NCBI GenBank assembly: GCA_020850475.1
Contig: JADZEO010000035.1
Span: 1-43,113 of the forward strand
Direction of reading: 5' to 3'
DNA from: Bdellovibrionales bacterium
Lineage (GTDB): Bacteria; Bdellovibrionota; Bdellovibrionia; Bdellovibrionales; UBA1609
Length of the DNA stretch: 43,113 nt
Shown: piece after piece, positions 16,486-18,043 of the stretch
Layout: each line of letters opens with the position of its first letter
Position numbering within the stretch: the first letter of the stretch is position 1
The notes under the pieces: generated by a model
Told to the model about the DNA's origin: nothing
The model's database searches: none
What the model saw: the letters and a program-made list of their open reading frames with translations, nothing else
Position numbers and translations under genes: made by a program

Positions 16486-17385
16486 GTGGCTCGTAATCAA
16501 AATGATCGATTGAAAAAGTGGCTCATCTACGGCGGTCTCACCGTGGCGGTCGTCGGCGTGGTCATTTGGTCCCTCATGCCTCGTCCACTCCCGGTCGACA
16601 TGGCTCGGGTGGAAGTCGGCGACTTTGAACAACGCGTGGTCGAAGACGGCCGCACCCGGGTCAAAGAAAAATACGTGGTTTCCTCACCCGTTGACGGGGT
16701 TTTGCCGCGAGTGAAATGGAACCCCGGCGACCGAGTCAAACAGGGAGAGCCGCTGGTCTCGATCAAATGGGACTATGATCGCGTCGTCCACGCTCCGGCA
16801 AGCGGGGAGGTTTTGCGCATTCTTACCAAGGACGAAGGTTTTATCACCAAGGGCAAACCCATTCTTGAAATTGGCGATCCTCATGCCCTCGAAATCGTCG
16901 TCGACGTTTTGACCTCGAGCGCGATTTTGCTCAAGGTGGGCAACGAAGTTGAAATTGTTAATTGGGGCGGCCCGGCTCCCCTCGAAGGCAAAGTGGTACG
17001 CATCGAACCTTCGGCCTTTACTAAAGTTTCTGCCTTAGGGGTCGACGAGCAAAGAGTGAACGTGGTGATCGAAATCACCTCACCACGCGACACCTGGATT
17101 ACTCTTGGCGATCACTTTCAGGTGGAGTGCCGGATTCTGGTGAAACGCCTCACTCAGGTTCTCACTGTACCCACCGGGGCCTTGTTTCAAAAAGGTGGAA
17201 AGTGGTCGGTCTTTATCGTTCGCGGCGGTAAGGCCCAATTGCAAGCGGTGGATATTGCCGAACAAGGTCCGCTCAAATCAGTGGTTCAAGGAGGCCTGAG
17301 CGAAGCTGACCAAGTCATCCTCTACCCCGGCGACCGCATTGCCAACGATGTCCCGGTCATCCCCTCTCCCAGCAGCGCCGAATAA
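16486..17385 (+). CDS. Periplasmic adaptor (HlyD/MFP family) of the ABC exporter
   Basis: The 299-residue protein has one N-terminal transmembrane anchor (about residues 12-30) and a membrane-fusion-protein body. The split barrel-sandwich (lipoyl) domain is VVSSPVDGVLPRVKWNPGDRVKQGEPLVSI with the second half HAPASGEVLRILTKDEGFITKGKPILEIGD, and beta-barrel and membrane-proximal domains follow. It lacks the usual long alpha-helical hairpin, as in some MFPs of ABC systems. The start is GTG at 16486, three bases after the permease stop, with GAGG upstream. It would link the inner-membrane exporter to periplasmic or outer-membrane partners. Its stop lies within the left end of the large inverted repeat. 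Confidence 0.88.
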   Translation: MARNQNDRLKKWLIYGGLTVAVVGVVIWSLMPRPLPVDMARVEVGDFEQRVVEDGRTRVKEKYVVSSPVDGVLPRVKWNPGDRVKQGEPLVSIKWDYDRVVHAPASGEVLRILTKDEGFITKGKPILEIGDPHALEIVVDVLTSSAILLKVGNEVEIVNWGGPAPLEGKVVRIEPSAFTKVSALGVDEQRVNVVIEITSPRDTWITLGDHFQVECRILVKRLTQVLTVPTGALFQKGGKWSVFIVRGGKAQLQAVDIAEQGPLKSVVQGGLSEADQVILYPGDRIANDVPVIPSPSSAE

Positions 17386-17657
17386 CACCGCAACGCCTCC
17401 ACTGAACTCTCGACCTCCGCGAGCCCTTGGGCATTTAGCGTCCTGGGATTACTTACTTTTCATCCTTGGCCTCACGCACCTTTCGGCCGCGGGCGCGTCT
17501 TCGGCGTGCGCTAGCTCTTCGAGCCACCGCACGTCGGATACGCCCCGCGCGACGGTGAGGATTCGTCCAAGGATGAAAAGTAAGTAATCCCACGAGGCCA
17601 ATAAAATCAGGACTTGCGGAGGGTGGGAGTTCAGCGGGTGTGGTTGGCGGTTATTTT
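17379..17657. repeat. Large imperfect inverted repeat between convergent genes
   Basis: The arms are 17379-17469 and 17567-17657, each 91 bases and aligning without gaps, with roughly two thirds identity. The inner 26 bases are perfectly complementary (17444-17469 with 17567-17592). The outer parts are clearly related at CTGAACTC and CCTCCGC. The 97-base centre has smaller complementary stretches (CCTCAC with GTGAGG; CGTGCG with CGCACG). The ends reach the stop codons of the adaptor and VOC genes. It could form a huge transcript hairpin that ends transcription from both sides, or be a degenerate MITE-like element. Neither can be decided here. Confidence 0.85.
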
Positions 17658-18043
17658 TTGGATTGGGCCAGGGCGATGATGTGGCCATCAAAGTCCTGAA
17701 CATAGGCGACTGTATCGCCCCAGTCGCGCATGGCGAACTCGCTTAGCACTCGAGCCCCCTCTTTGACGGCACGTTCAAACATCAAGGTTGGATCTTCGAC
17801 CACCAGGTAAAGTTCCGCTTTGGGAATATTTTCGCTTTCAGCGGGATTACGAATCGCCTCACCCAACAATTTTTTTATTCCCACATTGGGCATCAGTCCC
17901 AAAACGGCCGGCCCGCCCAACAAAAACTCGGTCATTCCGGGCACATCAAGGACAGGTTTGGTCATCAAAACTTTCGCGTAAAAATCGCGACTTCGTGACT
18001 GATCCGCAACGAACAAAATGGTATGAACCCGGTGTATTCGCAT
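17651..18043 (-). CDS. VOC (glyoxalase/bleomycin-resistance fold) protein
   Basis: The 130-residue protein has the paired beta-alpha-beta-beta-beta pattern of the vicinal-oxygen-chelate superfamily: HTILFVADQSRSRDFYAKVL at the N-terminus, AELYLVVEDPTLMFERAVKEGARVL (about residues 76-100) and WGDTVAYVQDFDGHIIALAQ at the C-terminus. Members include glyoxalases, dioxygenases and drug-binding proteins. His5 and the second-half residues could bind metal, but the specific activity is not predicted. AGGG six bases before the ATG supports the start. It is convergent with the exporter operon and divergent from the LuxR-type regulator. Confidence 0.85.
   Translation of the reverse strand: MRIHRVHTILFVADQSRSRDFYAKVLMTKPVLDVPGMTEFLLGGPAVLGLMPNVGIKKLLGEAIRNPAESENIPKAELYLVVEDPTLMFERAVKEGARVLSEFAMRDWGDTVAYVQDFDGHIIALAQSKK

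Follow-up and report, generated by a model that had tools for sequence, protein, structure and literature searches.

Among dispersed bacterial sequences, the REP, BIME and REPIN elements, which occur with RAYT transposases, are short, structured, multi-copy intergenic palindromes that show a preference for gene 3' ends and may stabilise or terminate mRNAs. MITEs carry terminal repeats that are conserved between copies and match the ends of a transposon. The double-hairpin elements of organelle genomes (PMC5910586), compared here by title only, are reported as mobile hairpins of mitochondrial genomes. More generally, stem-loops are concentrated at the 3' ends of bacterial genes, and some of them belong to repeat families (Petrillo 2006, PMC1590033; PMC2267715). 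Hairpins can be created and maintained by template switching, in which one strand of the stem is a reverse-complement copy of the other (Monttinen and Loytynoja 2022, PMC8794818), and the available part of a further report concerns coding palindromes in the mitochondria of Nematomorpha (PMC6649704).

Analysis of a 43,113-nt stretch of DNA from a Bdellovibrionales bacterium (the window) indicates that a large palindrome between two of its genes belongs, as a worn copy, to a family of dispersed hairpins with about 150 copies in some Bdellovibrionales-type bacteria. The family is apparently undescribed; no account of it was found in the literature searched, which omits most subscription journals.

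The inverted repeat of the window

The inverted repeat (17379-17657) is flanked by an adaptor gene (16486-17385, + strand) and a VOC gene (17651-18043, - strand), and its arms extend up to the stop codons of both. As the initial annotation had reported, it contains a perfect inverted repeat of 26 bp (17444-17469 / 17567-17592), here enclosing a centre of 97 nt. Outward of this stem the arms remain similar without gaps, at 73% identity over 17399-17637, with 8, 14, 8, 14 and 17 matches in successive 17-nt blocks from 17385 inward. The earlier description of gapless arms spanning the whole gap between the genes is therefore slightly generous, the outermost part being weak. Near-identical peptides had also been read from the two arms; the likeness is present (LASWDYLLFILG), arises because the arms form an inverted repeat, and has no further meaning, and a coding role was dismissed. 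RNA folding, a check suggested along with these claims, gave a strong fold, with a minimum free energy of -161.5 kcal/mol against -97.5 +/- 4.9 for shuffles (z -13), and the hairpin folds far more stably than shuffles on both strands (z about -13). No promoter-like or terminator-like site was detected in 17300-17750, and the window region had no match in Rfam 15 at E 1. The parts of this copy are the following:

17385-17443, + strand: outer left arm, decayed, pairing imperfectly with 17593-17651 (8-14 matches per 17 nt)
17444-17469, + strand: inner left arm, perfect over 26 bp, from the inverted-repeat survey
17470-17566, + strand: apex (centre), the conserved structured core, from own-genome BLAST copies and a covariance-model match at 17474-17562
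17496-17510, + strand: conserved apex stem, 5' strand, CGTCTTCGGCGTGCG, pairing with 17528-17542, with compensatory changes across copies
17514-17524, + strand: terminal hairpin GCTC...GAGC; other copies vary (GCTC/GAGC, GCCC/GGGC)
17528-17542, + strand: conserved apex stem, 3' strand, CGCACGTCGGATACG, pairing with 17496-17510
17567-17592, + strand: inner right arm, perfect over 26 bp, from the inverted-repeat survey
17593-17651, + strand: outer right arm, decayed, pairing imperfectly with the outer left arm (8-14 matches per 17 nt)

With its apex intact, its inner arm perfect and its outer arm worn, the window copy is an old, decayed member of its family.

Copies and distribution of the family

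BLAST searches of the own genome located the centre of the hairpin at about 11-12 further places, the matches covering the centre and not the arms, which are themselves without copies elsewhere in that genome. When these places were folded, every full copy proved to be the tip of a long hairpin with private arms. A survey of 725 kb of own-genome sequence yielded 14 inverted repeats with a score of at least 20, compared with a best score of 14 in shuffled DNA, and 11 of the 14 longest hairpins in this sample contain the centre, either whole or as a recognisable fragment.

When searched with a covariance model built on the apex, first R1 and then R2, 13 of the 144 genomes in the class proved to contain the family, and extension to the phylum returned the same 13 among 369 genomes. 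Together these hold about 150 copies, with at most about 30 in any one genome, and they span 11 genera, three families and one order. The window apex matches R2 over 17474-17562 with 75 bits (E 1.6e-16). In a pattern scan of GTDB contigs, the sole source of true relatives was the MAG JAKFYE01 ('Bdellovibrionales bacterium isolate ND5_Bin_38_2', G124), of the same order as the window genome, whose 11 copies have nearly perfect arms of 37-52 bp and lie mostly between convergent genes. JAKFYE01 excepted, most of the 49 genome-contig pattern matches look like chance, as does the one viral-contig match, which sits in coding sequence. No match to the element was found in the plasmid collection, and 20 other loci produced only matches far below threshold in Rfam 15.

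The family is unevenly distributed even within a genus. Genomes G018 and G019, which share a genus with the copy-rich G020 and G021, are without any copy by the covariance model, and one G021 element site is element-free in both, in intergenic DNA too diverged for base-level comparison. Such patchiness between species is as expected of a mobile element. In G007, several contig ends (L355, L357, L358, L361) fall within identical apex sequences; the element breaks assemblies, and the copy numbers of this genome are lower bounds.

Architecture of apex and arms

In nearly every copy inspected, a conserved structured apex of 75-145 nt lies between two inverted arms of 23-91 bp. The apex contains the near-invariant elements GTCTTC...GGATACG, and its stem (17496-17510 / 17528-17542 in the window) displays compensatory changes. 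A C.U mismatch in it is also conserved, as is a U.G pair that none of the 18 sequences first aligned has lost. These stem features suggest a role of the apex as a folded single strand. The arms are AT-rich, the 5' arm being T-rich. Where the search model was confined to the apex, 64 of 66 matches in six genomes have arms of 23-91 bp, with mean identities of 0.92-0.98 per genome; the remaining two are an inverted pair in G031, where arms are present and interrupted by indels. The arms of the single G007 copy are 0.985 identical.

Variation within the apex was also seen. In G031 (L311/L312, L309) the apex is itself tipped by another long hairpin, whose arms are again matched and particular to the locus, such that the behaviour of the arms is seen inward of the apex too. 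In JAKFYE copies (e.g. L134 1494-1610) an extra apex segment, GCCGAAAGCAAT, is able to form pairs with TTGCTTTCGGC across the main stem; compensatory variants occur (ATGC/GCAT, ACGC/GCGT), and a pseudoknot or alternative fold is possible.

Other inverted repeats occur in the own genome. A second, different family, found at L048 17530-17622 (contig C10) and L079 15998-16175 (contig C21), has the common arm motif AAAGTAGCAGGCACCTTT. In the 682 kb of the own genome that were covered, 7 near-matches occur, whereas loci sampled from four other genomes contain none. Located between two co-directional ORFs, L067 11173-11234 (contig C8) is a loop-less, near-perfect palindrome of 31 bp without apex sequence.

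Genomic location

According to rough codon-based gene calls around 122 copies, 107 adjoin a gene 3' end, the arm following the stop codon at a median distance of 15 nt. Sites between convergent genes are commoner than sites between divergent ones (44 to 15, p 2e-4), the latter again by rough gene calls and out of all 122 copies, and at co-directional sites the apex is oriented as the upstream gene in 45 cases and opposite to it in 18 (p 9e-4). The element is thus REP-like in being intergenic and in avoiding divergent promoter regions.

The initial annotation had also considered a very large terminator, a proposal not supported as such: at 17300-17750 in the window there is no terminator-like site, intrinsic terminators being recognised by a short GC-rich stem with a T tract after it, and some copies lie away from gene 3' ends. 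In G121, 4 of 7 left arms (three by strict criteria) begin where an intrinsic terminator has its T tract, no terminator being found by strict criteria on the right side, and the true terminators lie outside the arm. Such proximity is compatible with insertion close to terminators, with a function at 3' ends, or with simple tolerance. At a site between convergent genes that include mfd, two genera (G017, G010) each have an element, the arms being unrelated and the apex inverted between them, and the two could be separate insertions. This was the one shared site, and no orthologous pair was clean enough to demonstrate homogenisation of the arms in place. The pair L243/L232 was rejected as an orthologous site, the element lying at opposite ends of the gene.

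Concerted change of the two arms

The two arms of one and the same copy have identities of 0.95-0.98 in the JAKFYE genome, G020 and G021, and of 0.90 in the window genome. Arms taken from different copies agree at 0.60-0.71, near the value of 0.62 for shuffled arms. Relative to the genome consensus in seven genomes, 1218 substitutions are common to both arms and 207 affect a single arm; for indels of at least 2 nt the corresponding counts are 122 and 58. When arms were re-paired between different copies as a control, about 2 indels in all were in common. Examples in the alignment include L224, L228 and L230, where both arms carry deletions of 4 to 8 nt. If compensation were independent, an identical multi-base indel would have to arise twice, which favours templated copying from arm to arm, and multi-base changes, indels among them, that make the arms identical are also what template switching in a quasipalindrome would leave. 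Together, these sequence patterns point to arms that would be matched by templated copying through template switching in the hairpin and not by base-by-base compensation.

Mismatches between arms cluster at both arm ends. On the apex-sense strand of 111 copies, G.U pairs, through which RNA compensation usually passes, make up 33 of 5537 arm pairs (0.6%), fewer than the 109 A.C mismatches; because part of the A.C excess consists of recurrent consensus mismatches (e.g. near AAATYTCT in G021), this asymmetry is not strong strand evidence. Copies of the own genome have mismatches at 51 of 412 pairs, a higher rate than in other genomes, as if correction or activity stopped there. In C137 of the window genome, a half-core has been duplicated or rearranged together with 14 nt of arm, possibly the scar of a template jump.

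Candidate enzymes and mobility

Y1_Tnp is encoded in 113 of 141 genomes of the order irrespective of the element, and the element-rich G002 and G031 have no Y1 transposase match, so that the host transposase of a REP/RAYT system is not consistently present. Similarly, no reverse transcriptase match (RVT_1) was obtained in G002, G021, G024 and G010, the first three of them copy-rich, and the hosts thus do not share the enzyme of a retroelement or group II intron. No transposase is enclosed by the element in the copies inspected in detail, and no transposon ends were seen in the loci inspected; candidate transposase-bearing copies were discarded, as the inverted pairs of G031 enclose ordinary genes and the contig ends of G007 are assembly breaks. 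Terminal repeats conserved between copies and matching a transposon, as in MITEs, were not found, nor was a target-site duplication or exact empty site, the flanks being too diverged for base-level comparison. The suggestion of a MITE-like or REP-like element nonetheless comes nearest among the initial guesses: the centre is a dispersed, multi-copy intergenic repeat with a conserved fold and a patchy occurrence between species, but the arms are locus-specific and form no common terminal repeat that would define the element, and neither a transposase nor a target-site duplication was found with them.

Origin and upkeep of the hairpins

Taken together, these data make it likely that the elements constitute a family of dispersed, probably mobile hairpins, the private arms of which are kept matched by arm-to-arm rewriting. 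An element of about 180-300 bp comprises the conserved 75-145-nt apex, the recurring unit, held by two long inverted arms. Between copies the arms drift fast. Within a copy, one arm would serve again and again as template for the other, the most likely process being template switching in the hairpin as DNA is replicated, known as quasipalindrome correction. Elements accumulate just past stop codons, often between convergent genes, sparing promoters and coding sequence; judging from this position, the transcribed hairpin may help to terminate the mRNA or to protect its 3' end. Such correction appears to have lapsed in the outer arms of the window copy. A more tentative extension, which we consider possible and no stronger than that, is that the apex serves as a nucleus for continual templated rewriting of the arms, with a putative factor recognising the folded apex and moving the element or triggering the copying. 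Each copy would then keep private, perfectly matched arms, the wobbles and mismatches conserved in the apex would make sense on a folded single strand alone, and the elements would be a new class of bacterial repeat.

Arm matching could instead date from transposition itself, if a folded single strand, either DNA or reverse-transcribed RNA, had its second arm made on the first and later decayed. Many copies with perfect arms, patchy presence among species of one genus, the G121 copies adjoining T tracts beside intrinsic terminators and the orientation bias (45 vs 18) all agree with such an origin, which we judge unlikely: arms within a genome are near-random between copies (0.60-0.71), meaning that each copy would need to have jumped recently, and from a lineage both old and distinct, and the copy-rich G002, G021 and G024 are without RVT_1, as G002 and G031 are without a Y1 transposase. 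Less probable again is that the arms stay paired through selection for an extended double-stranded RNA near the mRNA 3' end. Compensatory evolution of this kind would suit the position after stop codons, the same-orientation bias and the conserved apex structure; however, it is at odds with multi-base indels in both arms together, and G.U pairs, at 0.6% rarer than A.C on the gene-co-oriented strand, run contrary to RNA compensation on that strand and would fit pairing of the other strand only.

The remaining explanations separate the apex from its arms, or this copy from other sites. Insertion of the apex into the loops of pre-existing long hairpins, such as large terminators, could account for copies that are often at 3' ends and in a few cases beside intrinsic terminators, but it is very improbable given that long hairpins without an apex are almost absent from the sampled genome (725 kb yielded three that are clear, of which two belong to another repeat) and that the terminator, where seen, is outside the arm and on one side only. 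The initial annotation had held that a repeat without copies elsewhere and without RNA 3' ends in the region would amount to a chance local duplication. That the window arms have no copies elsewhere is in line with a chance inverted duplication unrelated to other sites, yet the centre recurs in the own genome by BLAST and has many copies of the same architecture in 13 genomes, and because these copies exist, chance has next to no probability.

Comparison with known systems

Ordinary compensatory mutation does not easily account for long perfect stems whose sequence changes fast. With about 150 copies in 13 genomes, joint indels and substitutions can be counted, making the origin and upkeep of long hairpins testable in bacteria. 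The elements also give relatives of predatory bacteria a further repeat family, one that breaks assemblies (G007) and may shape mRNA 3' ends.

Like REP, BIME and REPIN sequences, the element is structured, multi-copy and intergenic and favours gene 3' ends; unlike them, it has a conserved centre with locus-specific arms and is present in genomes without a Y1 match (G002, G031). With MITEs such as Correia/NEMIS and ERIC it has in common that it is small, non-coding, dispersed and patchy and carries inverted repeats, whereas its arms vary more than any other part of it and neither a parent transposon nor a target duplication was found. It is rated as an intergenic hairpin repeat, REP/MITE-like in behaviour, and not as a tested member of either group. 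We know of no matched private arms in the stem-loop families of bacterial gene 3' ends introduced above. Those families resemble the element in comprising 3'-end stem-loops, some of which form repeat families (PMC1590033, PMC2267715), and Bdellovibrio is not mentioned among them by Petrillo 2006 (PMC1590033). As far as the available text of the two reports extends, RNA genes (PMC8794818) and coding sequence (PMC6649704) contain perfect stems or palindromes as seen here, the difference being that the present hairpins are a multi-copy bacterial repeat with stems of about 50 bp.
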